Source: Asterionellopsis glacialis (lineage: Eukaryota; Bacillariophyta; Plagiogrammaphyceae; Rhaphoneidales; Asterionellopsidaceae). From it: 49,533 bases of DNA. The translations under genes were made by a program, and so were the position numbers. Below the pieces are notes generated by a model, which made no database searches, was not told the origin of the DNA, and worked only from the letters and a program-made list of their open reading frames with translations. Position 1 is the first letter of the stretch. Each line of letters begins with the position of its first letter. Location of the stretch: contig WKLE02005005.1 of NCBI GenBank assembly GCA_014885115.2, positions 1-49,533 of the forward strand, written 5' to 3'. Shown piece after piece: positions 1 to 24,215 of the stretch.

Positions 1-720
1 CCATCGAGTTCTATAAGTAAAGGTATGGTTCTGAGCTCCCTGATTGGCTGAATTTAGCGCCTGAGAGAACTTTTCCCCCACTAGCTTGAGATTAAGCTTC
101 GAATAAATGAGTACCTGGTAAATGGGGGTGTACAGTGCACCGTACCGGGTAAAATTAAGAATGATTTTTGTGTATATTTGCATAGGGAAGTATTGGTACT
201 GTAAATATAATGGGTGACTTTTTTACTTAGGATAAGATCAACTAATGTTTCCTATTTCAAGGTATAGTACCGTTTAAGTCATTATTTCCATGATGTACCT
301 GGTACTGTACCTTGTACTACTAGATACTGTAATGTACAGCTAGTAATATTTCAACATACACAGTCCCGATTCCAGATCGTTATCATATATAATATATAAT
401 ACAAATTCGACAAATTGTCCACAGTCGTACCAGGTACCTACTATGAACTATTTGATATTGTACCAGGTAGGGAATCGTAGAATTGATTATCTGCTGCTTT
501 GCCAACGTAAAGGTCCTCTTTGTATAATCATGGTATTTAAGAAAAATGGTTTTGAATTTCCGACCCACCTCGGCGACAATCAAAACTTGTTGATTAGGAA
601 TAAGGAAGATAGAATATCAACTCCGAACTCGCGCACCGCAGAGAGATCCAAAATCCAACATCAAAGACATCCCCGTCAAAAAAGATTTGTCCTGCGTCCA
701 TCACGACAGATCACGACACG
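1..720. other. Intergenic, upstream of the P450 gene
   Basis: I see no convincing gene here; the one 93-codon open frame (443-724) has no recognisable features and runs into the P450 start. The stretch is AT-rich and carries two exact copies of the palindrome GTACC(A/T)GGTAC at 295-305 and 427-437, with near copies at 111-120, 142-151 and 460-469. It presumably holds the P450 promoter. The left window edge may cut another gene that cannot be seen. Confidence 0.5.
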
Positions 721-2773: not shown

Positions 2774-3484
2774 AGATTGAGTTTTTGGTGTACTTTTTAA
2801 AAGCGTGTATGTATGGATTTTGTTAGAATCAGATGTATGACTTTCATTTTCTTGAAACATAATGCAATGCCATGGTACTTCACTAATAAAAAGGTTTGAG
2901 AGTGAAATACTTTGCTTCGGGTTTAAAAGATTAAGTAAACACTTGAGCCATACGAAATCTCGCAAGAGCAAAGCTCAATGTCTTTGATTTTTTTGTATAA
3001 TGACGATTTACTTACAGGCAGTGGATGTGCCTGCCAAGAATACATTCTTCTTCAGCGAGGTGTAATCAGATTACATCCGTAATTGCTGCTGGTAATCTCA
3101 AATGAAGATTGAAGATTCTCTGACAAACAAATAATAAGTGGTGGTAAGCTCCGCAGTCACTTTCCAACTTTAGTACCAAAATGACAATTTTACAGTATCA
3201 AGATAGCACAAGATCAAAACAAAATGAAATGAAGTGATTCAAACACTCCAGGGAAATTATGAAGAACTTCTCGAAAAGGATAGTAAGAAACCCACACAAA
3301 AGTAACACAAAATCAATCCTATACCATATAATTACGAGAGATACATTTACAACCTTATTTCCTTGTACATAAACTTCAATCTGCACCGGATGCAATACTC
3401 ACTCAGCTTGAATCTTTAAAAAGTACAAGGAAATAGGAACACTAAACAAATAATCAACCCCTTCAATGCAAAAATGATTTTTGT
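2774..3484. other. Convergent intergenic region between P450 and alkaline phosphatase
   Basis: Shared 3' region of two converging genes. An AATAAA-like string near 2884 could serve P450 polyadenylation. A small palindrome (GTAATC/GATTAC) sits near 3063-3075. No open frame looks like a gene. Confidence 0.5.
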
Positions 3485-5937
3485 TTACAATCCAAACAAA
3501 TTCTTCATCATACATGCATGGAGATGCATCTGATCAACCTTGTTTGGACTGCCTTCCACTTGTCTTCCAAGCACCTGGAATCCTGCTCCGAGCAAGGCTT
3601 CAATGCAACCTTCGTCACCGGCATGGAATAGAGGCACAGGACGGGTGGAGTGAGAACCCCATCCGTTTCCTCCCGAACCACGGGGACCCCAGAAGTGACT
3701 GACGCTAACAAGGTCCTCCATGGTCCAAGTTGAAAAGTCCTTGATATGCTCGGTTTGACTCTTGCTATCATCTTCATGGCGACCAGCTTTCACGCCTGCT
3801 GACCATGGATTATAATTTGAATTATTTTTAGGGGTAATGTTGTGAGAGGTACCGTCAATCAACAAATTAGCTAAGGTCTCGGGGAATTCGTCCATCAAAG
3901 TCACATAGTGATCATGATCGGCTGTCACGTAGAGAGAATTCTTCTCCCAGCCTCCATTATCTGCGATCCATTCCTTGATTACTGCGACAGAGTCGTCAAT
4001 GTCAAGCATAGTCCCAAGCATATCATCCATGTGATTTGCATGAGCTGCCCAATCAATCTGTTGTACAGCAATGAAAAGAGTACGCAGAAAAATTAAGAAA
4101 GTACAAAAAATATGAGTAAGATGAGCGATTGATGACACAATATATAGCGAGCACGTCAATCCAAATTACTCACGTCTCCTTGTTCATACATGAGGAAGAA
4201 TCCATCATCATCTTTGCCTAAGAAGTCGAGTGCTGCCTTGACGTTCTCTTTGATGTGGGGAATTTGATCGATTTCTTCTGCAGAGTAATGATTACAGAGG
4301 TCATCTGATGTAGTAGGATTTACTCCAATAGTATTACCGTCGGCATCCATGACTGCCTCTCCTTTTGAGCACCAACGATTGGAATATGTGGAATCCACAC
4401 CACGGTAAGGTAAGTTGGATTGTCCACTTGCTGTGTATTCACCACCCAAACAAACTAAGAGATGATCACCATTGTCAGGATCCAAGTGTCCAATACCATT
4501 ATAGAAATCCTGAGTACAGAAAAAAGTCCAATCAGAGAAGGAAAGCGATGAGCAACAAATGCAGACAGACGTGAAGCAATCAGAAGCAACATATTTCACA
4601 AAATACCTTACCGCGGCACTAATATTTTCATTTTGTTCCAGGATAGTCCACTGGCTAGAAAGCGCTCCACTCCTCATACTTTCTTTAGTCTCTGCAGATG
4701 GTTGGTACCTCGAAGCACATGTTCCACTTGCAAATGTTGGATTTACCTTTGTAAACGAATGTTGCATCTCGGGTCCGTTCTTGCGGTAGTTAGAGTGCAC
4801 AATGAAAGATCCTGGAGTTGCATGAAACATGGGAACTGAAGAAACAACACCTCCAGCCTTTCCACAAAACATGGCATCCTCAACGATTGTGCTGACTTCT
4901 TCTTCGTACAACGTCTGAGACATCATATTGACCGCACCCTTGTGTCCAGTTGCCATTGTTCCAGCAGTGGAAGCTGAGTCAGTTGCATGGCGCATGATGT
5001 ATTCAGGGTCAAAACCGTCACTAGTGTCGGGGTTCTCTTGGTAGTAGCGAGGATCCCAGGGGTATGCGCCACCCTTGACGTCATCCCAAAGCACCATATT
5101 ACCTCCATCAGCTTCAAAGTCTAGAGGACTGAAGTCAATAGGATAACCGCATTCATTGAGTGCGAGAGGAGCCATGCCTGAACCATGCTTAGAAACTGAC
5201 CCTTCAAGCAAAGACTGTGCTGGTGCGTAGTGGTTTCCGGGATTTGGTGCTTGCGTAACGGTTGTAGTAGTTGTCATTAAATTCATATGCATGTCTGATT
5301 CTTGGAAAGACAAACCCTCTCCCTTTCCTGAACAGAAAAAGAAATTGGAGATGAAAAATCAGAAAAGATTCTCTGGTTCAATTACATATTGTTTCGAAGA
5401 CAACTTACCTTCTGTGTAGTAATCTTGGATGGTACGTCCTGCAAACTGAGCTTTCAGACTTGCATCACAACCATTGGCGATATCACATCCAGCATCTTCT
5501 AATTCTTCAATAACCTTTTTGGCAATTGCACCTGCACGTACCATCTCCCATCCCTATGTTCAAGCAGAAATTATATTGAAAAATGTTAGCTCTGTGCTGC
5601 GGAAAAATATGTCATAAAGAGATTAGCAATTTACACTCACCATTCCATCTCCAATCACCAAAATGACATTCTTTCCACCATCATGACCACAAAGTTGGTC
5701 TGGAACATCGGGGATCACACCCTCACGTGCAAGAAGGCGCTGGGAGGCATCCATTCCCTGGTAAGGATAGTCAGACTTTCCGTCCTTGTTGCACTTGCGG
5801 AAAAGAGAATCCTTCTTCCCGCCTTTTTTCTTGCCCATCGTGACTTCTTCTTTACCTTTTAAAGACCGGAGCCTGTCACCGTGGACATCTTTGGCTAAAG
5901 CGATGGTTAAAGCAAGCACAGCTGGGGTCCACTTCAT
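3485..5937 (-). CDS. Alkaline phosphatase, PhoA-type, secreted
   Basis: Phosphomonoesterase releasing phosphate from organic phosphates, probably extracellular or periplasmic. Model on the minus strand: exons 5937-5641, 5553-5409, 5327-4612, 4509-4174 and 4057-3485, joining in frame with GT-AG introns to about 688 residues. A hydrophobic N-terminus (MKWTPAVLALTIALA) looks like a signal peptide. Family motifs in order: VIGDGMGW (metal-binding Asp, about residues 94-101), TDSASTAGTMATGHK with the phospho-Ser near 265, IDWAAHANH near 499-507, TADHDH near 543-548, and HSTRPVPLFHAGDEG near 634. All expected zinc and magnesium ligands appear present, so it should be active. It is longer than bacterial PhoA (about 470 residues) because of insertions, including a variable stretch around residues 165-260. 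Phosphate-starvation control is usual for the family, but I saw no clear PSR1-type site upstream. Confidence 0.93.
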
Positions 5938-6366
5938 CTTTCCTTTGGAGTTTCAAGTAATCGAAAATTATGATAACCAATTATCATGCAGAAAAAGATA
6001 CTTCTGGAAAAAGGGTATCTTCAGTTCCAGCACAGAAATTCTTCGAGATCGTGATTCATCCCAGATTTTTCATAATATGCGGGTCCGACACGTTTCCAAA
6101 GCAATAAGGTTTTCATGGTAATGCATATTGTCAAACCTTCCTGAGTAAATATTCAAATAAGAAGTTCAATATGTATTCTTGCATTTGAAATGTCCGTTGA
6201 TTGTACAACAACTCCATAATATATTCAAATCCAAAATTTTCGTTTGAATCTGTTGTGTACACGAACGGAGATAGATTTCGAGATTCTATCTCTGTTCTCA
6301 GAATTTCCGTGCGTACATAATATTGTGAGAATAAATGCATGTATATAACAATAAAAATGGAATTGA

Positions 6367-6724
6367 GAAAACATGGGAATCAAAATGAATCTTCCGTGAA
6401 GATACCTGGTATTAGTGTACAGGTACCAGTTACCAGGTATACAAAGTACTGTATTCAAAGTATACCGGATAATTAATTCAGATAAAAAAGGTTTAGTGAC
6501 GGTTTCATTTTATTTAATTATCAAGCGGTATATTTACAACCACAATTTAGAAAACATGGGAATCAAAATGAATCTTCCGTCAAGATACCTGGTATTAGTA
6601 TACAGGTACCAGGTATACAAAGTAGTGTATTCAAAGCACACCGGATTAAAAATTCAGATAAATACGTTAAGTGACGGTTTCATTTTGTTTCATTATGAAG
6701 CGGTATATTGACAGCCACAATTTA
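6367..6724. repeat. Two-copy tandem duplication, about 180 bp unit
   Basis: Copy 1 (6367-6549) and copy 2 (6550-6724) start with the same GAAAACATGGGAATC string and end in CCACAATTTA. Both contain ATACCTGGTAT palindromes, ACCGGAT, GACGGTTTCATTTT and GCGGTATATT. CpG sites are mostly kept in both copies. Divergence is small, with short indels. Confidence 0.9.
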
Positions 6725-7148
6725 CTTTTACAAAAATAATGATCTCACGATATTCGAGCCCCTAAGTAAATTATACGCTGAATCTTCTGGATTTTGAACG
6801 GCAATAAAAGAGCTAGCAAGAAAAGAATCCAGCGCCTAATCCTAAAGTACCTGTACGGCTCGATCTACTTCCGGCCAAAAAAGTTTTTATAAGACTCACA
6901 CACTACTGATGTTAAGATTCTGACAACACAGACCATGATTTCGTGCAGAAGGTAAGTATCAAGCCATACGGGTACATGCCGGTACATGAGTAAACTAGTC
7001 TAATTAATTGTATTATAATTTCAAAATTATGATTTGAAATCGACCACCATGGCCAAAAATTAGTGAGAACATGATGTATTTTAAAATACCAGGGAGTCCG
7101 AGCAACCCTTCTTTTCCAGATTTTGGAAATCAGACGGCTGGTTCGTGA

Positions 7149-7156
7149 TGACGTCA
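7149..7156. promoter_or_regulatory. CRE-like octamer TGACGTCA
   Basis: A perfect TGACGTCA palindrome. bZIP proteins, including those of diatom CO2/cAMP-responsive elements, bind TGACGT cores. It lies about 1.2 kb upstream of the phosphatase start with no nearer gene, so function is uncertain. Confidence 0.3.
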
Positions 7157-7223
7157 TATATCAAATTTCAGTACCCTCCCTCTCAAACTTCGCGCCTTTT
7201 TAAAATCACAATCCCGTTTTTTA

Positions 7224-7294
7224 TTTTCAGGGGAGATTCGATTCTCGGTCCATCCTACCCCTACGCTAACCCAAAACCAAATCTCCCCTGAAAA
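7224..7294. repeat. 15-bp perfect inverted repeat, 41-bp loop
   Basis: TTTTCAGGGGAGATT at 7224-7238 is the exact reverse complement of AATCTCCCCTGAAAA at 7280-7294, with further partial pairing outside. It could form a hairpin, be a small mobile-element remnant, or mark the edge of the insertion beginning about 150 bp downstream. Confidence 0.7.
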
Positions 7295-7458
7295 CAAACG
7301 TCTGCATTGCTGATTTACGATGTGGGCCCAGATCTGCCCTAAACAGACATTCGGTCACCAAACACCCAAAAAAGTTGAGAAACTGACAAAAGATTTTTAC
7401 TATCAAATTAGTGTACTATTTACACGTCAGAGGTGTCAGAACACACACCTTTTCTTTT

Positions 7459-8169
7459 TCACTTTTTCTCAAACTTACTACTCTTGAGAATCTTTTTGAA
7501 GTCTGCTGTTGCCAGCATCACTGATGCTGCTTGTTGCAACTGATCACTGTCTAGTAGTGGCTGTGAGTCATCGTCCAGTTTAGTGTCCTCTTCTCCTACC
7601 GTGGTTGAGTTGTGATCTTTTTTCTCAGTCTGTTTTTGTTCCTGCCTCTTCTTGTCCATCTGGCCTTCCAACAAGGTCCTCAAGTCCTGTCTTCCAAGTA
7701 ATGATGATGCAAATACTTTTTGTTCTGCATCTTTCTTGGGGGAGCCATCACCATCATCATCAAGAAGAGGTTGTGAATCATTGTCTGATGTCTCTTCTTC
7801 ACCTCCCTTGTGCTCATTTCCATTTTTTTATTTATACTTGATCTTTTTTTTCTTGAAGTTGTCAATTGTTTCTGTTACTTCAATGAAGTCAGTTAAGTTG
7901 TAAATGTGACCATGTTCTCCAACAATGATACCATCACAAATGATTGGGATGGATTATTCTTCAAAACTGGCTACTGCTTCTTGAAGATCTCTCTTGAAGA
8001 GGACCATGGAAACACTATAACAGGACCAAAGTGCCATCATGCTACTGTAATCTATTCCTACATTTTTTAATTCTATTTCTGCATTGAGAAATTTTTCAGC
8101 CAGAATCTCTGACTTACCATGTGCATGCACAAACTCCAGAATAAGACAGGATTCCCAGGATAACTTACC
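7459..8169 (-). pseudogene. Broken ORF with acidic C-terminal tail (copy A)
   Basis: One minus-strand frame is readable from about 8169 to 7459 but contains two TAA stops (near 7950 and 7830). It encodes a folded-looking part (VHAHGKSEILAEKF..., then EHGHIYNLTDFIEV) followed by a charged tail in which the pattern GEE(E/D)T...DSQPLL occurs twice. The folded part resembles the plus-strand ORF at 15665-16387 (EGNLYNLPEDLITL), which also has a charged tail, so the two appear to be diverged copies of one element gene. No known domain recognised. Confidence 0.5.
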
Positions 8170-8348
8170 TTATATGTGTAAATATAAAAAACATTGTCAT
8201 ATCCATGTGATCAACATTACCATTGACATGGATTGTACCACTGACAGTAACAACCTTGTTGACAACAGCAATGCAATGTCAGAGTGTTCTGAAGCAAATT
8301 ATTAAAATAATAAAAAAGAATCTGTGTAGAAACTGAGTACTAGTTCAA

Positions 8349-8445
8349 GCCAAAATGAATCCCATCCAGTACAAAATCCCGTAGAATCTACACTTTTTTT
8401 TGCCAAAATGAATCCCATCCAGTACAAAATCCCATAGAATCTACA
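8349..8445. repeat. 44-bp direct repeat, copies differing at one CpG
   Basis: Copy 1 is 8349-8392 and copy 2 is 8402-8445. They match base for base except that copy 1 reads CCCGTAG where copy 2 reads CCCATAG, i.e. the only change is CpG to CpA. Confidence 0.9.
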
Positions 8446-8602
8446 GAAAAAGTCTCCCAAAAAACTGGAAAAATCAGTGTCACACATGAGTCACACTTTT
8501 TAAAAGACTCTCACAAATTGATGAAGATGACAATGAGACTCTATTTTATGCTTCATTATCCTCTGTAACAGACACCCCTTTGTCCCTACATACTTCCTTG
8601 AA

Positions 8603-9241
8603 TTACTGCATGAAGTGCTTGAGTTGCTGGCCACTCACATTGTCTGCTGTAGCTAGGAATGCATTGAACTTATTTGTCAAAACTTTATTGATTTTGGTTT
8701 CCTCCAGATTTGGTATGGAAGGTTCTGTTGGTTGATCCCCCAGCAGTACAATCTCATCCACCATCTTGTCCTTGTACTTATCCCATAAATCTTGTAAATC
8801 CTTTTTATTCATAGAGCCTTCTTTTTTTACCATACTTATTTTCACCCATTTTCCACTTCAGAAGATATCTCAAATTTGGAACTGTAGTCTTCCCTGACTC
8901 AAGAACCTGTTTTGCATTATCATGCTAGTCTTCATCTCCTGTAACTTTTTGTAGTCCTTTATCTCTTTCTTATATTTTTTCATTTGTCCTTTGTATTCCC
9001 AAGCCAAAAATATCTCATCCATACTTAAACAGTTTGGACCAATAGTGTAGAATAGGCTAGATAAGTTCAAACCATTTTTAACTATTTCCTTAACTTGTTC
9101 TTCTTGTCTGGTGGACTCTGGTAGTCTCTCCATAAGTGCCTTATATTTTCTTTTGACTTTCTCTAATAAGGGATCACCACTCAGTCCTTTTATTTTGCTC
9201 ACCATGTTGCATAGTACTCTGTTACTTTCCTCCAAGTCCAC
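8603..9241 (-). pseudogene. Charged, coiled-coil-like remnants downstream of the transposase
   Basis: Two minus-strand open segments, 9241-8870 and 8845-8603, lie in one frame separated by two TGA stops. They are rich in Lys and Glu (KGQMKKYKKEIKDYKKLQE) and end NVSGQQLKHFMQ. Another frame across the junction reads LKWKMGENKYGKKRR, which suggests frameshifts. They may be the C-terminal part of the DDE transposase ORF immediately upstream on the same strand, or a separate element gene. No catalytic motif seen. Confidence 0.4.
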
Positions 9242-9607
9242 TAAGGTTGTATTGGACCAGTCCTACTTTGTATCTTTGTTTTCAATAGTAACAGTGATAT
9301 CATTATTAGTTGTTTCAGCAATTATAGCTGTATCGTCCAGCTCATGTCTCACAGAAGGATCTTCCAACACTTTCCTTGTTCATGGGACTGCCCCACATGT
9401 TTTCCAGGCAGATGCATTTTGTTCTTCTGAGAAAGCCATTTCAAATGGCAACCTCAGGGGTGTAATGTTATCATCACCCTTTCTTCCATTAATTATCACA
9501 GGGGTAGTCTGCCCTGTTCAGTGAAACATTTTTGAAGGGTGCTGCCTTTGATTTGTTGCTTTTGTGTCTCATCCTTGCCTTATCTTGTGATTGTTTGAGT
9601 CTTTCAT

Positions 9608-11402
9608 TTAAAACAGAGTATTAAGAATGTGGCAGAGCATGGACTTGAAGAGTCCATAATTTCTACCTGTTTCTTGAGAAACTTGTGTGGTGTGCTGTAC
9701 TCCAGGGAATAAATATACCCCCATTGATTGAATTTCTGCCAGTGAACTCATGTCTAACCTACCAGGTCCTCCATCAAATTTGAATAATACTCTCTTTCCT
9801 GGCTTATCAGCAGCATCAGGGTATAATAAATCAATGTGCCTTAACAAAATTTGTTGAAGTACTCTAGTATCAGTTCCTCCTTTTTCATCCACCAATATCA
9901 ATGTAGTGACATTCTTTTTCTGTGAATGTCCAAATTGTACATTTAAAATGGGTAAACCATTGATCCAATCTGCTTTTACTTTATAATTCTCTTCTGTAGT
10001 AGCTTTGGAAGAGAATGTAAGGGCTGGAAGCATGGGTTCTCTAGCTGCATTAGAGCCACACATCATTGTGCTGGAAACAGACAACTTATTTGCAGAGGAT
10101 CCACATCTTGCAACAACACTCACTGTTATGGTATCTGCAGGACAACCACCTCTACCACCATCAGAACCATCCAGAGAGAGGTTGGTCTCATCAATGTTAA
10201 CTATTCTTCTCTTCTGCTCTTAAGAAAAATATCTCTCCTTCTCTTTCTTCCTCGGGTATAGACACATCATCATATTCTTTTGCAAATCCAAATTCAAGGC
10301 AAAATGTTTTGAAACTTGTGAACCAATCATTTAAGTTATCATATGTAGTCCACTGAATGCATCTCATTTCCTGAACCTGTTCTTTACTAATGGTGAGTTG
10401 TTGTGGTATTCTTTCTTTTATCCTCCTCCAAAGTTTTGCAACATCAATTCTATCTTTTCTTGTTCTAATGGACTTGTTTCTTTGCTTGATGATGTCTTCT
10501 AAAATACCCTGGATCTTCAGGTTGTCTTTTTCCATAATACCATTGACTTGATTTATTGAAATGTAGGAAACAACAGCCTGAGCAATAATAGGAAGTTCTT
10601 TGTCATTAAAGTGACCAGTCCTTCTGGTCCTGGTGGGTTTTTTATCCCCTCTTCTGTCAATTCAACCCAAGGCATGTGAGATTATGCTCCTGCTCCTGTG
10701 TTTTTGATTAACTTGCTGGCATATTTCTGCTGCACTCAATGATGTTTGTGATATCATATTTATTGCTTCTTCTGATGCTTCATCATCTTCTCTTTCTAAC
10801 TCCCTCATTTCTTTGTTTGCTTTCTGTAATTGCTCAGGTGTATACCGTAAGTTCCTAGTAATACTTTTTTTCTGTAGTTCCTTTTTCCTAGACTTGATGC
10901 TACCAGCAGCTTTCCTTTTAGAAATGGTATTACTAATACTACTAATACTAGATCTGGTTTTATTGTGAGAGTGGGATGTTTGACTTCTTGTATTCCCAGA
11001 AGGGGAAGACATGTACAGACCTGATGACAAGCTGGATAAACTACAGGTACCATTTTGTGGGGGCATGACAAATGTACCAACCTGACAATCTCCACTACTA
11101 CAACAACCACCTACATGACTATCAACAACATTACAATTCATTTGCTTCTTTTTTAATCTGTGTTGTCTCATCCTAGCAGCATGCTTTTCTCTTTTAGCAG
11201 CTTTCTCCTGTTCAAGAACACTTTTACTGAGTCGGAAACTTGTTTTTGTACAGTATATTCTGCTGTTTTTTATCTGCAGCATATCTGTTGGAATAACCAG
11301 CTTCCAACAGACAATCATGGTAGCTCTTTTTGGGGTCTGCAAATCTTTTTGCTGCAGCAGTTTTGATTCTAGGTGACCCTTGGGTGTCTTCCTGGGTACC
11401 AT
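9608..11402 (-). pseudogene. Decayed DDE-superfamily transposase
   Basis: Minus-strand coding in three pieces. 11402-10662 has a basic N-terminal region (AARMRQHRLKKKQ) and a TPEQLQKANKEMRELE helix. It is closed by an in-frame TGA (10664-10662), after which the same frame continues through FNDKELPIIAQAVVSYI to about 10197. A one-base shift then restores frame into VNIDETNLSLDGSDGGRGG and on to 9608. The candidate triad is Asp of NIDET (codon 10190-10192), Asp of KFDGGPGR (9773-9775) and Glu of SQETGRNYGLFK (9671-9673); the last two are 34 residues apart, matching DD34E-like spacing of Tc1/mariner-type enzymes. Stop plus frameshift make it non-functional. The exact superfamily is uncertain. 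Confidence 0.6.
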
Positions 11403-12843
11403 TGTCACTTGTTGGAAGCAGTCAGAGGTAGTTGCAGCTAGCCTGCACCAAAAAAAACATTTTTTTGTCCAACTGCATGCAAAAAACTGCCAGCTCCAAG
11501 ATTCAAAACTGGTGCACAATAAGAATCTCAACCATAACTCATTGGCATTGGGAGGTAAAACAATACTCATGATACAAAACACAAACTTCACAATATTTAG
11601 AATAATGTTGTATAAACTGATCCCATATTTATCCATTTATGATTACTTTTATAAGCATCTGAATATTGAGTGACACGAGTGTGACACAGTTTGAACACCT
11701 TTTTTCTTCATACAAATTTTGAACCTCTTGATTGAAACCTAAATATTTAATGAAATTCAAATAGTTACTATTGTTTTAATGTTGTATATGTCTTCTTTTG
11801 TAGTTTATCTAATGTATCATAACTTCTCAGAACCCAAAAGACTTGAGTAATGATAGGTTTTGGAGGGCCATAAGTGGGACCATTGTGGAAGAGAAAAAGA
11901 TGGAAAATGTTTTGTGACATGCACTTGAAATGCCAAAAAATGCATGGGATTTAGTTTGGCTTCAACTGGTACTTGGCTGGTGATTCTGGTGATTCTGGTG
12001 ACACCTTGGTGCAAGTTTCATGCACCAGCCAGCTAATTTCCAAATTACTTAGGGGGTCTGTCAAAGAAAGGTTGCTTGGACTCCAGGTACCTGGTATGGA
12101 AGATTTGGATAATTTTGTTCAGAATATGGAGGATCAGTGAAACCCAGTACTGAAACCCTTGTGGGACATCTGGCCCTGACATTGCCCTTTTTATTTCTTC
12201 CCTCCCCCCCAAACCATTTTTTAAAACCAATGCTGCCTTTTCCTAAATACTTTTCACTAACAAATTTTAGGGATAGGGATATTTGCTCCTGGTTATCAAA
12301 CGTTTCTTCCTTCATTTTTCTGGGAATATTCTCTTTGTGTTTTTTTTTTAGTTATACTACATTTCCTAATTAATTTCTTCTTCAAATTTCTACAATTTTA
12401 AATATCAACACTACCCACAACATAAGCAATGGAGCTCAAAGTGATCATCTTGTATACTTTCCTCATATTACCACCATCTTCAACCCATACATTTCCTTTA
12501 TCTCCATTATTTACCGACTTACCTGCTTTGTTGTTCCTTTTATAAGGCATGTAACTAATGTGTGTCTTACATTTACTCTCCACTACCTGGTGTACTCCCA
12601 AGTGGTAGTTATCCATCTGGTCTTCATTTGCTGACCAATCTGGTTCAACTGAGTCCTTTGACAGGAACCATTTCCCAGATGCATCCTTTTTCCAGACAGC
12701 AAATACTAGGTGTATTACTGGATTATCCTTTTAATATTGTTGATGTCATTGTTAGTAATAGAAGGTGTTTTGTTTCTTGTATGTTTATTATCTATACTCT
12801 TCTTTTTGATCAATTTTTCTGAAAACCATCTTCCTTGCAATAT
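11403..12843. other. Non-coding part of the CpG-poor block
   Basis: Only short open frames are visible, none with recognisable content. There is a triple CTGGTGATT repeat near 11985-12000, a C-run near 12204 and a GGTACCTGGTAT near-palindrome at about 12087. Probably decayed element sequence. Confidence 0.5.
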
Positions 12844-13389
12844 CTAGAGGAGCTTATACACTCCATCTTCACTCATCTTTTTGTGGTTTTTCATTGTCAT
12901 ACTTGACATTGTATACAAAATAAGATTTGGGCCTTCTAAAAGCTCTGACATCCTATGTGTTGACACTACAGTTGTAAACCGTACAAATACACTATTAGTT
13001 TTGTCAGTGGACATAGCAGTTCCCAAAAAATACAATGATATGATATCTTTTTTAACATTGTTTGATATATTTTGGATTGTTTTTGTGTCTTCCTTTTCTT
13101 CATTTTCTCCTTCCCTAGTACTGTCATCTGCAGGTAGTTTTGCTGCATCTACTACTACCTCCGGTGGCATTCTTTTTGTTAATTGTTTTATCCTCTCCTT
13201 CTTGGTGTCATACCTTGATACACTGATACTTTCCATCAGAGCATCTTCAGTTTTTTCTTCCTCATCATATACTTCATCTTTTTCTTTTGGTTCTTTCTTG
13301 TATCTTCTTTCATTTTTGTACCTAATTACATCCTTTACTCGTTTTTTTATATCGTCTGTGGTTTCCTCCTCAGCATATTCTGTCATCAA
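12844..13389 (-). pseudogene. Lys/Glu-rich ORF inside the block, 181 codons
   Basis: The longest uninterrupted minus-strand frame in this part of the block. The N-terminal half is highly charged (KKRVKDVIRYKNERRYKK); the C-terminal half is more hydrophobic and includes SLYFLGTAMSTDKTN. It lies just downstream of the RNase-H-like ORF on the same strand and may be its C-terminal extension or a companion gene. An opposite-strand frame of similar length is a shadow. No known domain recognised. Confidence 0.35.
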
Positions 13390-13429
13390 GGTATGCTTTT
13401 AACTGACATGACAGACACTCACTAGAAAG

Positions 13430-15008
13430 GATGCCATTCCTTTATTCATCTGGTTTAATAAAGGACACAGCACTTTCCACATTTGCAATGTGACATTTAA
13501 CCCACCAGCTTCAAAAAAACATTCTGTCTGGAGTTTGGGGTTATATATACTGGTCCAAACTTTTTCTCTCTGTTTTTTGTGGGGACTTATTATGTTTTTG
13601 ATTTCCTAAATTGACATCATTTAAAGAAGCCTGATATCCATCTCTTGATTTATCTATTTTGAGATGGTATTCCTCCATACTCATCCAGAATCTATCAAAC
13701 TTGATTACCAAGTTAAGAAAGTCCATCACAGTAAATTCATGAACAATGCCTAGGAAAATTGCAAAAAATGTTCCAATAGCTCTTCTGTGAGTCAATGTGG
13801 TTGCCTGTGTTCTCATCATACAGAAGCACATCAAGACACACTCAACAACCCAATTTCCTTTGGTTATTACACTAACACCATTAACATGTAATAGCTATAA
13901 AAGGGATGACCACAATATTGTTACATGTTGGGAAGCAGATAGAATTCCCTTAATATTGACTGCATACAAATGCATCTGCATAAAAAAATTAAACACATAA
14001 CTACCTGTGACTCTGTATCTTGGTTTGTAAGGGACAATAATTTAAAATACATCACTTGCAAAGTCTTTAACTTGGTAAAATTTTGAATTTATATTGATCT
14101 TCTTCAATTAAACCCATGTCAATCAAATGGTTCCCTACTGTCTTGATCATGTTCCCACCTACTATCACTTGATAGCAGGCATTCTTCACATTGTGATTTG
14201 CATCAGTATGTGTGGAAAATTTATTGCTACCTTTTAAAATAGATAACAATCCACTTTTTATAAAATAGCCATCACATAATGATATGCCATCGTTGGCAGA
14301 ACAAAAGAAAATAAAAAAATAACCATCTTCTCTCAATTCTTTTTCTGTGTCTTCCATTAAATTACAAACTATACAATTAAAATCAGAAGTTTCATTTTTA
14401 GTTTGAGACCTTGCAAGAAGTTGAAATAATGGTGACACACAGGGTTGTTCCACATCTTGAAAGCAAACAATTGCTAATCTATTGATAAAGAAGCAGAAAA
14501 CGGGTTTTTCTTGGAGAAATGAGCCTTACAATATCTAATAAAAAATTTCTTGGCTCCATCATCACTTCTATCAACTAGGCTTGAAAGAAAAGCATTGTGC
14601 TTGGCATCAAAAGGTTGAGCATAATATTTCATGTTCCTCTCTATTGGTCCATTTAGATTGGCAGAGAGGATTCTTGTGGACTTTGGACAACTTGCCTGCA
14701 ATATAAGATAAAGATGACAAACGGCCTTCAACATAGGACTCCTATTTTGTCCATTCATTCTTCTGATGGAGGTTTTTTAATGGTTACCAAATCAATGTAG
14801 ATTCAAATTGAGGGTTTTGTTGATAGAATTCCAAGAATTCTTTAAACCAAGATGTCCTAATATAATCTAGTGTTATATTTGATGGTGAAAAAAAGTACTC
14901 AATATATATTTCCAAACCAACCTGAATTGAATATTTCTTGATAATTGACTTTGGAAGAAGAACCCAACAAGTATTTTTTTCAATTTTCTCAATGCTTCCA
15001 TCAGTCAT
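13430..15008 (-). pseudogene. Second element ORF, possible RNase-H-fold transposase remnant
   Basis: Successive minus-strand segments (15008-14784, 14758-14474, 14453-14067, 13834-13541 continuing to about 13430) read as one protein after frameshifts, for example around 14480 where SLSI passes into NRLAIVCFQDVEQP. Notable content: a string DANHNVKNACYQ, where a D-x-x-H-x-x-K-N pattern resembles the second catalytic region of several RNase-H-fold transposases, and a C-terminal part with HEFTVMDFLNLV and SRDGYQASLNDV. It is unlike the DDE transposase at 9608-11402, so two element families may be present. The fold assignment is inference. Confidence 0.35.
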
Positions 15009-15260
15009 TGTGATGGTGTTGTACCTTCCAGAGTTTTTTGTTGATAATTACTTTGTTATTTTCCTGAGCAATAGTTGTGTTTGCAAGAGAAGGAAACAAT
15101 GCTATGTTCTTTGACACTGTCATTTGTTCTTTTGTGATATTAGTAGCTTCTTCTTTCTTTTTGAAAAGAACAATAAAGCATTATTTTTTGGTAGTTTGTT
15201 GAACACCCAAAGGAGCTTCTAAACCAAGTCCCTTTTGTTTCTCTTAGTTGATCTTGTTCT

Positions 15261-15503
15261 TCAGTTATTGCTTGTGCCCAACAGACTAAATATGATCACT
15301 AAAACATCTGTACATGAAGGGATAACCTCTTCTTGTTTTCTGAACATGAGTTTTTGAATCAACATTGTACTTGCAACAAATACTGCAGGTGATATAGAGA
15401 CCATCCAATGAAGTTTCAACAATGATCCCCTGATACTTCTTTGGAATGGGATCCCAAGAAGTTCATTTGGAAGAGTCTCTTCCAAAGCATCAGAAGAGTC
15501 CAT
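15261..15503 (-). pseudogene. Short ORF fragment, possible N-terminus of the second element ORF
   Basis: An 80-codon minus-strand frame beginning MDSSDALEETLPNELLGI with a hydrophobic middle (WMVSISPAVFVASTML). It lies upstream of and on the same strand as the RNase-H-like remnant and is probably its decayed beginning. Nothing recognisable by itself. Confidence 0.25.
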
Positions 15504-15664
15504 TGCATTTTGGTTTGAGGCAGTTGTTTATTGTATAGCAATACAGTATGTTATTTGGAGGATTGTGGAGGCTTACAAATTTAGTTTCCCATCATTGCTT
15601 TTTCTTTTGTCAATGCTGTGTGACCTCCTAATAATACCATTCATTTCGTAATGTTGGTGTAAAA

Positions 15665-16646
15665 ATGACCATTGGGAAAAGGAGGGAAAAGGTAGGCACA
15701 AGGTATTCCTCAGGGAAAAGGCACAACATCAAAGAAGCACCTAGCTATTTAAGAGGTGTATTTTCTGGTGTACACAGCAATGCACAAAATGTTTGCTTTC
15801 CAAACTACACAAACTCATACACCTTCTTCTCCTCATTTGTTATTCCAAAAGGACTACATGTTAATTGTTGAGTACTAGCAATATCAGCATCCAACAAGCA
15901 AAACACCACATCCTGCTTGGCTCATCTTGTACCATATTATAACTTTGATGGTGATGATGATAAAGTAATCCTGACACTCAGCAGAGACAAACCACTGTTT
16001 GATCAATTTAAGAGGAACAATTGTGCAGTTTGTAAAATCACTGAGTACACTGAAAAGTGTTATGCAAGAGAGATTGTTCTGCCAAATGAGCTGTTGAACA
16101 AAAATGTACAAAGCACTGGAAAGTGAGTACAAAGTGACAGAGATTATCCAAGCATGGTAACAGTGATGATATCCCTTACAAAGGCAATGAAAAATTTGAA
16201 GTTCTGTATGACAGAGGTGATGTCAACATTTGATGAAGAGTCTTCACCTTTAATTGGAACAAATATTTTTGGGGATAAAGAAGGAAACCTTTACAACTTA
16301 CCAGAAGACCTGATCACACTTCCAAACAATGTCAATCAGAAAAAATTCAAGCCAAAACAAAAAGAAAGAAAAGGAGGAAGACCATGAAAAAGAGGATGAA
16401 AAGAAGGAGCAAGAATATAGTAAAGAGAAAGAGAATGAGCAAGAAGAGGATGATGATGATAGCCACACAACTTTAGAAGCATATAACAGAATGGAGAAGA
16501 AAGATCATGTGGAAGAGGAACAAGAGGAAAAATCTTATGATAGTAACTTTGACTTGCCGGCAGAAACTCCTAAAGAACCTACAGAACAAGAAAACAAGGA
16601 AGCTATTCCTGGTACAGCCCAATTTGGGCCACTCTTAAAGTATTAG
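15665..16646 (+). pseudogene. Broken ORF with acidic C-terminal tail (copy B)
   Basis: Plus-strand frame from 15665 to 16387 interrupted only by two TGA codons (15869-15871 and 16124-16126). A frame change near 16350 then leads into a strongly charged tail (EEDHEKEDEKKEQEY...) ending at 16646. The part around EGNLYNLPEDLITLPNNV resembles the minus-strand ORF at 7459-8169. Both TGAs could be former CGA Arg codons changed by CpG deamination. A short intron starting at GTGAGT (16123) is an alternative for the second stop. Function unknown. Confidence 0.45.
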
Positions 16647-17028
16647 TACCTGGTAGTCAGGAAGTGTAATATGCTGATACAGATTGCAAGGAAAAAGAAG
16701 GAGACCGCAGGACATTTTTTTGGAAATAGCCATTAATATAGCTATTAGAAATAGGATTATTAAGTGAATTTGTACCATTTACTTAGGAAAACCAAAAACC
16801 AATGCAGAATTTTTTGGGTTAGGGTTTAAATTTTTTCATGTAGAGGTTTCACTGGTTCTCAAATATGTAGTGGCAAATTGGTCCCCAGGGTGAGGAAAAA
16901 TGCATTACCTTGGGGGGTGATTTGAATGTCACGAGACCATCCTAACTCTGTAACTGCAAGGTTTTCAAAATGGAAGAGATAAGAGGATATATCTCATCTT
17001 GTTAATAAATCTTATGATTGATTGAAGA

Positions 17029-17276
17029 CATCTATTGACAACTACTGGTGATTGTCACTTTTCCTTTATGTCAATTAGCTTGGACCAAAAGGGAAAAAAT
17101 GTGAGATACATTTGGTCAATGCAGGGTGTGCTCTTTTATCTTTAAACTGGTTTTGAGCTCTTCTAACATCTATTGATGACTACTAGTGATTGTTACTTTT
17201 CCTTTATGTTGGTTGGCTTGAACCAAAAGTAAAAAAGGTGAGATACATTCGGTAACTGGTTTTGAGCTCTTCTAAC
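17029..17276. repeat. Diverged two-copy tandem repeat, 137-bp period
   Basis: Unit 1 begins ACATCTATTGA at 17029 and unit 2 begins with the same string at 17166. Both end in GGTTTTGAGCTCTTCTAAC. Unit 2 lacks about 27 bp. Most substitutions are transitions; one place pairs CA with TG and another pairs TG with CG. Confidence 0.8.
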
Positions 17277-18938
17277 CAGTGCCATCCTTGATTTATTTAC
17301 TACTTGGGGGGGGGGGATTGACAAGACTAGTGAGGGCTGGTACTCAGCTGTCAGTAGGACTTTCAAACCTTACAACAGCAGCAAAAATCCCATTTCACTA
17401 TACTGTAAAGGGTCCCCCCCTGACAACCTTTTTACTTTTTATATCAAACAGTACTTTTTTTGCAGCAATTAAATGGTGGTGGTAGGGGGGGGCTTAGAAC
17501 AATTGGAAAATACACCATATTTAGAAATGACAATAATATGATTGAGAGACAGAAACTTTTCATGATAGAAATGATATCATTTTAAAATTTACTCATGCAG
17601 CCAATGTAAATTGCTTGTCTTGGTACAGTATAAAGTCTACAAATAGAGGCCTCATTGGTCCTTTTTTGACTCATCTATGTGTCATACCAAAGAATCTAGT
17701 ACTAACCCACTCCTGTGGGACTCAAGTAAGATGTCAGAGAACTCTTTCTGCAGATGAGCATTCCCATAATTGCAGTAATAGTTGAATTGGAAAGACACTT
17801 TTTGTAGAAGTATTATAAAAGTGTAACCAATATATATATGGACAATATTGATATTGTCAACCCTTTTGAGGAGCCAGCTGCATTTTCAGAAAAATGAGAT
17901 ATATCTTATTTTTGGGAACCATGCATTTAAAGGGTTAATTCTTAAGTTAATTCTTAATTAGTTATTGAATAGAAATAGAAAGTTTGAATGAGGACCAGCC
18001 ACAAGATGCTATTCTTGTTCTTGAATTATATAGTAGGGTCAAAGGAGACCTACTGGTTGTACTTCAAAGCGGTATTATTGAAGAAAAAGGGAATGATTAG
18101 TGGTGAAGGAAATATGCAGGAGGGACTGGATGAGGATAAAATAAGAAAGGATGAAAAGCAAACCTGTATGTGCTAAGAAACTAGATGAAATCCTTAATGC
18201 AAGAAGGTTCATGAGAGTTTTTTGATACCATAGGTCCCTAAGTGAGTTGGTGTCTTCTATTTTTCTTGCTTGAGGATAACACCACAGTACTGAATTGCTG
18301 GTGGGAAGGTCATCAATATCTACAAGGTGCATCTTGCATTTTTGATAGCTCTCTGGAGATACATTCTAAAGAAGTATATTAACTAGAGGTTTTCACTATA
18401 ATGAGGAGATAAGAAGGGCAACTTGCATTTACAGGGGCAAGTGTTTGCAATTGGAGAAGAAATGTTTTCACATTGGAAGATTCTACCATTGATGTCTCCA
18501 TTATCTCAAATAGACTTGTGAATTAGGGTCTTCTCCTCTCATATATAAACATCAACACACTCCTCTAACAACTCCCAAACAGCACTATTCCTACTTATTA
18601 CTTATACTAGATGCTGACTGGTGTTGTCCATGCATCATTCATGATCTAGTTTATGTACTAGCATTGCCAATCATCATCATTAATTACTATGTTGTGTATT
18701 GTGATGCTGAGTTTTATTGCTTTCTCTTTGTGAAGTTGCTACTACCTACTGCTACTGCTCTTTTGAATTCACTCCTATGATCACAAAAAAATAAAAAAAA
18801 CACCTGGCATCTGCATGAAACACTGAAGCAAACACTAAACTAGTTGTGCTTTGCTAGAGGCTGCAGGATTAGTGGATATAAAGAAAATGAAGACAAAGAG
18901 AGGCAAGGTGAGATGAAGTTTCCAAAAAGAGTTAAGAA

Positions 18939-18986
18939 AAGCAACATGCAATATAAATTGTTAAGCAACATGCAATATAAATTGTT
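18939..18986. repeat. Perfect 24-bp tandem repeat
   Basis: Two identical head-to-tail copies (18939-18962, 18963-18986) beginning AAGCAACATGCAATATAAAT. Perfect identity implies a recent slippage or duplication in otherwise decayed sequence. Confidence 0.9.
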
Positions 18987-21945
18987 GGGGATTGAAAAAA
19001 ATATGAGTCTCCATTAATTTTAGGCTGGATCAACTGCTGGCCCATACACTGACCCAAATTAACACATATGACTGTGTACAAACTCTGTCAAGTACAGATC
19101 TTTGCCCCCTCTTCAGACCTATTTCCCCCCCCATTTCTTATGCATATCATTCAGATTTATATGTGTGCAGAATGAGTTTTCCAATAATTTTGTCAAGAGG
19201 AAACAGTGGGTTACTTTCTACTGTTGACACATCTTATACTAAATTGGATAAATAGACAATTAGGCTTCTTATTGTTGGACATTCTTGGTATAGAGAGTTT
19301 GATTTGCCTTCTGAAACAGCTGTTTTGGATTTGGCATCACAACCGTGATTAAGTGGACATGAGGACCTGGTAACAGCAGCAGGGATGTCAACAACCTATC
19401 CATTGATTGTACAGACAATGTCATTCTTGACTAAAAAGCAAAATGGTTCCCTTGATTCCATCATGTTGATGATAATGTGGTAGTTTTGGAAACAACAACA
19501 AGAAGTAAGTGGCTCCTGACAGTAGTAACACAACAAAATATTTTAGTGCTAAAGATTGGGGATACACTAATTTAGGAGTGTGTAGATTGCATCTTTTGGA
19601 TTGATCTGTCTGATGTGACTTCACTAGTACTAGATCATAACTGTATAGTATGAAGCAGAATTTGAAACATTATTGCCACTATGATATTGCTTTCTAAGTT
19701 CTAAGAAGGTTTTGGGATATCTGATTTTGAAGCAACTTCTTTGAATGAGTATGCCTCATGCAGCAAATCTACATCATGGTCTTCTAAATAGGCTCCTCAT
19801 TGGCAGTATCATCATGAAGAACAACAAGAGCAAGTCTTACTTATTGTCTTCTATTACTTTATGATAGTGAGGAATCTTGTTGACAACATTATAATGTATT
19901 GAAAGACTGAACAACTAAAAACAAATTCATTGTAGTACATGCCATGGCACAACCATTTTTTTATGGTGGCCGTTCAATTAATTGTACAAATTAGGTGGCA
20001 ACAAGTTATATGCTATCAAGGTTTTTGGAGGAGATATTGCTTTGTTTCAACTCAAAATCCTGCACTTGTCTGCCTACTACATCACATATTTCATTTACTC
20101 CTGTGATTCTTCTGGTCTTGTTTATCTTGCACATGAGATCTTTTCAGTACATATTCATGTGGTGGACAAATAAGAAGTGTGATTGTCCATCTTTTGGTGA
20201 TGAGTTACTCACCACAAGATATGTCTCAAGTCTTGATCCTATCACTTTTTCTTGTTGATTGTCCACTATATGATCTGTTGGCATATTCATTTGATAGCAC
20301 TCATAATGGATATAGCACCAGAGAAAACCTTTTGATCACATAATGAATGGGATAGGGAATCATGATTATGATTTTTATTTTTCAAGTATGAAAAACACCC
20401 AACTTCAAGATTAGCTGTCAAATCTCTATTTAACCATATTTTCAGATTTAGATAAACAAATTTAAAACTAAGGGCAATTGTATACATGATGAAATGATGC
20501 ATTACAATTTTTTTTACACATAGTACACATGACAATCTTCCTATTCAAATGCTGATGCATAAAATATATATGATAATACTAAAAAGGATATATCATAAAA
20601 TAACATATCTGCCTTACAAGGATCACAATTTTTAGATGTAACACTACAATATTATTAGTTACATTTCAACTACTACAGATTTTGTTTAAATATAGACATG
20701 TTGACTTGTATTCTTTTATAATATGCCTTATACTTTAAAGGAAAGAATAGTATTTATCCTTTTTCTTTTTTTTGGGTAAAATGGAAAAAATAGTAAGAAT
20801 GATCATCCTCAGAGAACTCAGCATTGCAATGTAAATGAAAATACCACATTTGTTTTCTGTAGCATTTTTATTATGATCAACAGTGCCATCTTGTGGTGGA
20901 CTATTTACGGACTTGGTTCTACAAAAAAATGATTCCTCCTGGGCTGTTGAACAAGAACAACCAAAGAAAAAAATGCAAAAAACATATTTGCTCCACTTCT
21001 ATATATAATGCTATGCCATTTTCAAACATGCCTGGTAGAGTGTTCCATAAGAAACAATTTGTAATCAATTATCAAAGCCATCACCAAGAAAAGTGGTTCT
21101 TTGATATCATGAACTGCTGTTATGGGAGAAATAACAAGATAACTAGTATTCCAAGAAATAAAATGAAATAAAATAAATCTAATATTTAAGGTGTGTCCTA
21201 CCTACAGCTATGGTTCTTGATACATATGTCTAGAATATTGTTTAGATAGGATCACCACAGTCTGCTGGGATACACTAGTCACTCCTGGGGGACAATGTCT
21301 TGGGGGAAGAGCATGTAAGTAAAAACCTTCAATGAGGTGCCTAAAAAAGCTTACACAACCCACTGAAGTTCTGTACATTATGTCTGTCTTGATTTTCTGT
21401 CATTTTTGTGTGGTGCTAGTGTGTGTTGTCTGTCTTGTTGGTTTGGTGCCAGACAGGCAGCTCTAGTGACTTGCATATGCGAGGCTGCTGGCTGAAGGGA
21501 AGCAATAACTAGTATTCCAGGAGTTACTATTTTTTCTTACCACCATGAAATACTGGAGATCCTAGTTTCTCCCCCCCTAGAATAAGCTCCTTTTCTCTTG
21601 TTGTGGAGCTAAAAGGATTAAAAAATATGTCGGAAGATGAAATAGGATTTCCTTTGAGTCATTCTTTCATGACTTTGCTATGTAACATGTATAGGGTGTT
21701 ACTAGGATAGGAGTCATCAGTTTTGGTCACACAAGTTTTGTTCCTTAAACAACATAACTTACTGGGAAGGATACATTTTAATAATTGCCAAAAATTGTCA
21801 GCCCCACCACCAACACGCACACCATGGTTCCTTTAATTTTAGCAATACAAAAAAATAATGTACTGATTCATGTGCAGGAACAATTCCTGACTCCAACCAT
21901 TTGGATTAACTCTTTGTACTGTACTGTAAATACATAAAAACTAGT

Positions 21946-22414
21946 ATTCGATGTCTCTTGTATGTATGATACAGTCCTACTAAGTCTTTCCACTCGTTTC
22001 AGACGTCCTACGTGTAGACTGTTGAACGTTCTGTGATGTACACTAATTTATGTATTGATATATTAAATTGGACTTCCAACATGGCTAGCCTGGCCATGAG
22101 TAGACAATTGCCGCAAAAGCATTTCTGATTCGACTCAGAGAAAAATAGATTCTTGGGTTCCCTTGCAGTCGAATGTGCACACAACCTCCTACCATCATTG
22201 GCAAATTTTTTATAAGAATTATAAGCTGTCGCGATGGTACCCTGGATGTACGAGGCAATACTTGCCAGTAAGCTTAGAGTCTCTCGCTATCGACCGATTT
22301 CGAAGAAGCACAATTGGTGTAGTGAGAGGAACGAACGATGTAGGACAAAAGTGGATCACGACCTGCCAATTCTTGTAGACCTTTTTGCTTCACTCTCGAC
22401 AAATTGAAGAGAAT
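21946..22414. other. Right edge of the CpG-poor block and 3' flank of the next gene
   Basis: CpG frequency recovers from about 21,949 onward (for example TTCAGACGTCCTACGTG near 22000). The stretch is the likely 3' flank of the minus-strand gene that ends at 22415. No gene seen. Confidence 0.5.
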
Positions 22415-22963: not shown

Positions 22964-24215
22964 CACGGCAAAATATCTGAAATATATTTTGAAATTGAAC
23001 CTTTTGTTGGTGGTGCGAATGCAGAGTGTGTAATCCAGGGGCGATCTTTGTCTTCGCGGTGGTTAATATCAGTGTAGTTTAGCTTGTACGAACTGCAAAT
23101 GTGAATACTACGATCGGGACCGAAATCAAAGATGCTTACAAACGAGAATTGCTAGGCTAGACTAGGACTAAACTCTAGATGATACAATAAAATAATACAG
23201 GGCGTCGCATCGATTCATCTTTTTTTTGATTTGTTTGTGTACCTGTACGAGGTTCCAAAGAAATTTGTTTGGCAGTCGTGCAAATGAGTCTTGTACCTAT
23301 CTTTCAGTCCGTACCAGGTACCAGTTATGGACCTACTAGGTAACGGTGCACCGTCTGTCTACCATGTATACCTCTACAGGTACCGGTACCTGGTAGTCTC
23401 CCAGGTACCCCCTGGTACCTGTACCAGGTACAACCGAATACACCGAAAAATACAAAAATCACACTTAAAAACACCACAAACACACGCGCGCGTCAGAACG
23501 AAGACGCGCAAACAGAAACGAGAAACTAGAAAATAGCATAGGCTTATAACCCAATAAGGTTTAGAACAGAGTTAGTTAGTTAGTACCGGTACAGGCGGTA
23601 CCAGGTACCTGTACCAGGTACGTTACCTGGTATGTCGGCACACTAGTCCTAATAAAAAGTACCGGTACAAATAGTGTGTCTTTCGTACTTATTCAAGTAT
23701 GAACTTACCGTTTTCGTTTATCAAAAATTAAATGGTAACAGGAACTCATATTATATTCATTTTTTTCATAAAAGTTAATCAATTAGCATGTACCTGGTAG
23801 AGAAGATACTTTGTTCTAAATTAAAATTTTCAAAAAATATGCCTGTACGGCGTACGACGAGTACGTCACACCCACAGAATGGGAAAGACGTATGTTGGGG
23901 GATAAAAATAGCTGTGAAATACAGTAAAATATATTAATAGCGAAAGGAGAAATAATGAGATCGGAATCGCGCCAACACAGAGGGATTTACAGAGATGGAC
24001 AAAAAGAAGATATGAGCTCAATACGCGTGGGAAAACTACAGACAGACAACTGGTAAACGTCAACCGACTCGAGAGATCCTCCTCCTCATAGGCATTCGCG
24101 AACTATCTATCAAGCGCTAAGAACAATCTTTGGGGCTTGGAGATCACATCGTATCCCTCGCAAAAGCATCACCACCCGACAATTTTTGTGTGTATCGCTA
24201 CTTCCATTTTCAACT
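22964..24215. other. Divergent intergenic region with palindrome cluster
   Basis: Lies between the membrane protein (-) and the DUF1499 gene (+) and must hold both promoters. It contains the densest group of GTACC(A/T)GGTAC palindromes in the window and a CG-rich string ACACGCGCGCGTC near 23485. No convincing gene. Confidence 0.5.
23311..23635. repeat. Cluster of GTACC(A/T)GGTAC odd palindromes
   Basis: Four exact copies at 23311-23321, 23421-23431, 23598-23608 and 23611-23621, with many partial copies between them (for example GGTACCGGTACCTGGTAG near 23379). The string is self-complementary apart from the central base. Some copies abut, so long hairpins could form. Confidence 0.85.

Follow-up and report, generated by a model that had tools for sequence, protein, structure and literature searches.

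Results

CpG Content of the Block and Its Flanks

The window analysed here is a 49,533-nucleotide stretch of the diatom Asterionellopsis glacialis (contig WKLE02005005.1, C1317 among the 1503 contigs of this 40.3-Mb genome), and it carries a 14.5-kb patch, 7440-21945, made mostly of dead nested transposons, from which about 94% of the expected CpG dinucleotides are gone. The flanks hold ordinary genes, with products that include a P450, an alkaline phosphatase, TPR proteins, an RSE1/DDB1/CPSF-like protein, a beta-hydroxylase and a ketoacyl synthase. By dinucleotide count, the block contains 29 CpG against 465.1 expected, an observed/expected ratio (O/E) of 0.06, in good agreement with the roughly 30 against 450 that an earlier note had estimated by eye; the same note had read two CpG in 7621-10200 and five or six in 24061-24120, and the counts gave 2 and 5. 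In the flanks, 210 of 291.3 expected CpG (0.72) were found in 1-7439 and 882 of 1140.8 (0.77) in 21946-49533. When the window was divided into 500-bp windows, 26 of the 29 inside the block were under 0.15, the value anticipated by the note, with a maximum of 0.27, and the minimum among the 69 outside was 0.34; the two ranges did not overlap. The segment of maximum likelihood ratio was 7601-21948, with 27 CpG and a log-likelihood gain of 351 nats, and the largest distance from one CpG to the next was 1274 bp in the block and 276 bp outside.

The GC content of the block is 35.8%, and that of the flanks 39.6% and 40.7%. Low GC does not explain the loss of CpG, because the control dinucleotide GpC keeps an O/E of 0.86 within the block. 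Moreover, CpG is depleted in all the sub-blocks, whether they are coding remnants or not (O/E 0.05-0.18). The excess of TpG and CpA that had been expected was seen in the ratios, 1.36 and 1.34 in the block versus 1.25 and 1.22, and 1.21 and 1.19, in the two flanks, and was modest in bulk: both dinucleotides together amounted to 155.0 per kb in the block versus 145.7 in the flanks, a surplus smaller than the approximately 29 CpG per kb that are missing. The comparison of copies is a stronger test than these bulk counts.

Direction of Change between Copies

Two of the repeats that make up the block, here named elements A and B, have relatives on other contigs (given as C plus a number) that could be aligned with the window. 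At 13 sites of element A, the relatives on C26 and C1136 both have CG, and there the window reads CA six times, TG five times, AG once and CC once, and in no case CG; as a control, 13 of 20 GC sites stay GC in the window. Two other pairs of relatives had one shared CG site each, where the window has AG and GG, and these were uninformative. At 31 positions of element B, TG in the window or in the C763 copy is matched by CA in the other, versus 2 positions for the GT/AC control, and across all the mapped copies 88 columns contain both TG and CA, versus 19 with GT and AC. Such disagreements arise when a CpG inherited from a common ancestor is deaminated independently in each copy, on one strand or the other; the ancestor of the family therefore still had CpG when it was spreading, by count about 16-28 per kb in the three longest comparisons of the element B window copy.

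Loss of CpG with Divergence and Age

The relation between loss and divergence was analyzed in 23 pairs, chosen by hand among the retrieved copies of elements A and B and of Copia elements. The regression was based on five hand-picked pairs of broken Copia copies, some sharing a member, and it omits the pairs L048/L051, L068/L070 and L064/L071 and three long-frame pairs (ratios of CpG loss to the per-site rate of 2.6-7.3 together), as well as twelve pairs of elements A and B (13.3-60.7). At non-CpG divergences of 0.047, 0.101, 0.129, 0.118 and 0.157, the loss per CpG was 0.56, 1.11, 1.39, 1.42 and 1.46, respectively, giving a slope of 8.8 ± 1.6 and an intercept of 0.22 ± 0.19. In these five pairs CpG was lost at 19-24 times the per-site rate, expressed per dinucleotide and lineage (about half of this per base). 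For the window copy of element B, the ratio was 45-61 against C763, C373 and C855, the three longest comparisons, 44 against C1475, and 17.7 against the more distant C1411; two further pairs of element B copies gave 38 and 49, and the element A pairs 13-38. Lower values were found for L048/L051, L068/L070 and L064/L071, in each of which one copy is less depleted (6.0-7.3), and for the three long-frame Copia pairs (2.6-3.6). The GpC control ratios were 1.9-8.8.

In 24 Copia loci, the CpG O/E went from 0.96 down to 0.11 and was lower in broken copies. It correlated with the length of the open frame (rho 0.71, p 1e-4), which GpC did not (rho -0.33, p 0.12), and inversely with TG/CA (rho -0.82). 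The seven loci with frames of at least 900 aa had O/E values of 0.53-0.96. The contrast between loci with and without stops was weaker, with medians of 0.36 and 0.75 (p 0.035). The in-frame stops of 50 Copia matches were TGA in 27 cases, TAA in 16 and TAG in 8; this is a raw tally with no neutral expectation, and its weight of TGA is in keeping with a change from CGA to TGA. Collectively, the loss is specific for CpG, runs from CG to TG or CA on both strands, and depends on the divergence of the copies. The GpC control, the polarity and the divergence among copies agree with the view, already held in the earlier note, of a CpG-specific mutation and not a codon bias.

Nested Repeats in the Block

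The block had been taken for one inserted region, a view that did not hold: its matches in the genome resolve it into at least four old repeats in a nested arrangement. The features are as follows, with the strand given where one was assigned.

7440-21945 (likelihood-best edges 7601-21948): CpG desert, delimited by CpG counts, segmentation and 500-bp windows
7444-8340: element A, left part; 78-82% matches to C1075, C26 and C1136; O/E 0.06 over 7444-8336
8337-11975, minus strand: element B, a DNA transposon bounded by terminal inverted repeats about 30 bp long; 85-89% copies on C763, C373 and C855, and further copies elsewhere; 6 CpG, O/E 0.05
9608-11636, minus strand: putative transposase gene of element B, now broken into three open frames (9608-10219, 10197-10661, 10662-11636)
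11983-12090: element A, right part; 78-80% to C26 and C1136, where it lies about 30 bp after the part matching 8093-8340
12130-12335: element C, left part; relatives on C275, C669, C544 and C1331
12336-16515: element D, about 4 kb between the halves of element C, probably nested; 9 CpG, O/E 0.07
16516-16860: element C, right part; 2 CpG in 345 bp, O/E 0.18
16861-21155: 4.3 kb for which the genome has no long relatives; 6 CpG, O/E 0.05
21156-21502: element E, fragment of a dispersed repeat; C195, C1452, C579, C139, C247, C279, C927 and C981; O/E 0.07

Element B is nested in element A: where the window has element B, the relatives of element A on C26 and C1136 show a stretch of just about 30 bp. 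The same two contigs carry an extra 3.6-3.8 kb at the point equivalent to window position 8094, which separates their matches to 7444-8094 and to 8086-8340, and the window copy of element A is therefore itself rearranged. The inverted ends of element B align with each other, and TA flanks were read by eye; TA is the target preference of pogo-like transposons. The piece 9608-10219 of its transposase has 18 relatives in the genome, and five of these were scanned for the DDE_1 domain (PF03184): P0003 passed narrowly (22.3 bits, cut-off 22), P0001 fell just below the cut-off (21.0 bits), and three had no DDE_1 match. Since one of the five passes, and narrowly, we assign element B to the pogo-like (DDE_1) transposons with moderate confidence. 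The pieces 10197-10661 and 10662-11636 presumably belong to the same transposase. A Pfam scan of nine pieces of the block, those of this transposase included, gave no match above cut-off. By the left end of element B, a 44-bp sequence occurs twice (8349-8392 and 8402-8445), 53 bp apart and with 98% identity.

In element C, the left part and the piece 16770-16860 are separated by about 45-55 bp on C275, C669 and C544, on C1331 the gap between the halves is 139 bp, and in the window it is about 4 kb. Element D, which occupies this space, gave a single short match, to C460 at 12398-12686, and its right boundary is uncertain, as C464 matches 16139-16768. For the 4.3 kb of 16861-21155, just two short matches were obtained, to C1439 (158 bp) and C207 (43 bp), in a DNA search that skips very common words and could miss repeats there. 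This part may represent what remains of a family since lost, or else unique DNA that was methylated. Within it, 17028-17276 holds a direct repeat whose units are spaced about 138 bp apart, with 79-85% identity. The match on C1439, locus L034 (13987-14140), aligns with 19077-19234 of the window at 70%, and has CpG-normal surroundings and short frames. Just to the right of the desert, 23235-23621 contains a cluster of palindrome-like, GGTAC-rich 21-bp repeats, and similar motifs were also observed near repeats on C26 and C1136.

CpG Content of Relatives and of the Wider Genome

Most of the retrieved copies of these repeats on other contigs were as poor in CpG as the block, with 0-3 CpG per 500 bp, and where their edges lay within the retrieved stretch, the CpG content was normal again within about 500-1000 bp. 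The expectation that other copies would be equally poor was therefore borne out for most of them and not for all: for element A, the relatives found on C26, C1136 and C1075 were mostly intermediate (500-bp values of 0-0.61), the stretch on C1475 was partly so, and the short match L034 on C1439 lay in CpG-normal DNA. With similar depletion and short edges on other contigs, the desert exemplifies a more general pattern. In ten 2-kb samples taken arbitrarily from the genome, a small set near contig starts, O/E values were 0.25-1.00, and among the 40 windows of 500 bp that they contain, 5 were at or below 0.25. CpG-poor stretches are common in this genome, but they are not the rule.

Methyltransferase Genes in the Genome

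A search of the genome with PF00145 gave eight matches on six contigs. Those on C368 and C1019 matched PDB 7r76 (entry name DNA repair protein Rad8) with E values of 2.4e-66 and 1.2e-35, respectively; we take this entry to be the Cryptococcus DNMT5, and the two products are predicted to be DNMT5-like. The match on C398 (L041, L045) has a DNMT1-like core and a chromodomain match just under the cut-off (24.9 vs 25.1 bits), and this predicted C5-methyltransferase is a candidate diatom DNMT4. The match on C44 was nearest to bacterial and DNMT1 enzymes, that on C597 to bacterial ones, and that on C466 was DNMT2-like, judged by eye alone. The genome, as predicted by homology, encodes DNA C5-methyltransferases. 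It also encodes a silicon transporter (PF03842, E 7e-82), as would be expected of a diatom although such transporters are present in other silicifying groups as well, and gave 37 matches to chlorophyll-binding (light-harvesting) proteins.

Discussion

The explanation that we favor for the desert, with a probability of about 0.85, is long-term CpG methylation of silenced elements together with steady deamination of 5-methylcytosine. A host silencing system would keep old, dead repeats CpG-methylated for a very long time; the 5-methylcytosine at CpG would deaminate to thymine on either strand, turning CpG into TpG or CpA until almost none is left; and the flanking genes, being un- or weakly methylated, would keep theirs. 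That the elements are or formerly were CpG-methylated, which methyltransferase was responsible, and that the deamination was spontaneous are points that we infer from the pattern of mutation. A simple balance with a 22-60-fold loss, in which the back-mutation rate was assumed, predicts 0.5-2.8 CpG per kb, and because the observed 2.0 falls in this range, the block may be at its CpG equilibrium.

The process is of a known kind: methylated DNA of vertebrates and insects loses CpG by deamination of 5-methylcytosine (see PMC9246332). The case of A. glacialis shares with these animals a loss restricted to CpG, towards TpG and CpA on both strands, with GpC kept, which grows with age and is concentrated in elements presumed to be silenced. 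It differs in being deeper, 0.06 over 14.5 kb (the bulk human CpG O/E is about 0.2), in having CpG-normal genes adjoining, and in occurring in a diatom with predicted DNMT5-like enzymes. Among diatoms, the literature reports methylation of transposable elements by DNMT5a in Phaeodactylum (PMC9998398), and CpG methylation on repeats, with methylated regions of up to 30 kb, in Cyclotella cryptica (PMC5124317). The CpG context and the preference for repeats are common to those species and to the present one, which has predicted DNMT5-like genes; there, however, methylation was measured, and here we have a putative mutational footprint only. In Phaeodactylum, methylation may also account for part of the mutation bias, according to PMC6604790. 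Among the matches listed in the open-licence literature, whose titles and abstract starts were seen, no description of CpG-depleted transposons in diatoms was found, nor any account of a similar depth, similarly sharp borders or such a clock.

Several observations weigh against this explanation. The bulk TpG+CpA is only 6% above that of the flanks, and the apparent rate ratio varies from 6 to 61 among pairs with a depleted copy. The length of the open frame is an imperfect proxy for age, since L048 (597 aa) has an O/E of 0.94 and L067 (1152 aa) one of 0.53. With no long relatives for 16861-21155, the transposon origin of this 4.3-kb part is only putative. In addition, the haptophyte Emiliania huxleyi has DNMT5 (PMC9998398) and is reported to have neither a CpG deficit nor an excess of CpG mutation (PMC7486954); DNMT5 alone is therefore no predictor of CpG decay.

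Among the alternatives, an active process resembling the fungal repeat-induced point mutation (RIP) and methylation induced premeiotically (MIP) deserves the closest comparison. Duplicated DNA would be recognised and its CpGs would undergo bursts of mutation, possibly through a diatom DNMT4 akin to the fungal RIP/MIP enzyme. Both systems have changes from C to T in repeats and relatives of cytosine methyltransferases, and repeats are indeed the target here; the genome has the candidate on C398, with its near-cut-off chromodomain and DNMT1-like core. Diatom DNMT4 is reported to be related to the fungal RID with moderate support, with chromodomains in some cases (PMC9998398), and such a use of methylation may have arisen outside fungi (PMC9246332). 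The top apparent ratios, obtained in the three longest comparisons with the window, come from a DNA transposon, and several successive rounds of mutation might look like a clock, the closest pair having 4.7% non-CpG divergence. RIP, however, acts very fast on duplicates, and the decay seen here follows divergence, with an intercept that, with the closest pair at 4.7%, is not clearly above zero. Copies of intermediate depletion exist, and the same depth of depletion is seen in 16861-21155, which lacks long relatives, although its former copies may have been lost or missed. A one-sided test for strand runs gave P values of 0.08-0.94 in six comparisons, three of which share the reference L048; none was below 0.05, and three were at 0.08-0.12. 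There was also little preference for context, the lost fraction being 0.71 for ACG, 0.74 for CCG, 0.76 for GCG and 0.77 for TCG. Bursts of this kind fit less well than steady deamination and are disfavoured; we regard them as unlikely, and slightly more so in the specific form of a diatom defence in which a DNMT4/RID-related enzyme mutates the CpG of transposons in each sexual cycle, far faster than spontaneous deamination would.

The remaining alternatives are much less probable. Elements that spread already poor in CpG, or that came to avoid CpG and so to evade methylation or some other sensor, would agree with the fact that nearly all the retrieved copies of element B are now CpG-poor, but the TG/CA disagreements between copies require a CpG-bearing ancestor and speak against this, and the Copia loci with the longest frames retain much of their CpG; we give it very little credence. 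Still less is left for the last two. Ordinary low GC, or a drift to AT with codon bias, has the lower GC content of the block in its favor and is refuted by the GpC control, as well as by the loss in coding and non-coding sub-blocks alike. Foreign DNA from a low-CpG donor, or a chimera of the assembly, would account for the sharp edges and the different composition; against it, copies of the repeats occur on many other contigs of the genome, and the relatives of element A carry CpG where the window has TG or CA. The nested structure, together with these dispersed copies, led us to reject a single foreign insertion.

In spite of belonging to a known kind of process, the depth of this desert, its sharp borders and a measurable clock in a diatom make it useful. 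If methylation followed by steady deamination is the cause, then sequence alone would reveal, in a single-celled alga, the footprint of a stable, long-lived CpG methylation of transposons, sharply bordered by genes. In sequenced diatoms, the CpG content could then serve as a clock for dating elements and to mark silenced DNA. It would also allow mutation loads to be compared between species with different sets of methyltransferases, for example with and without DNMT4.

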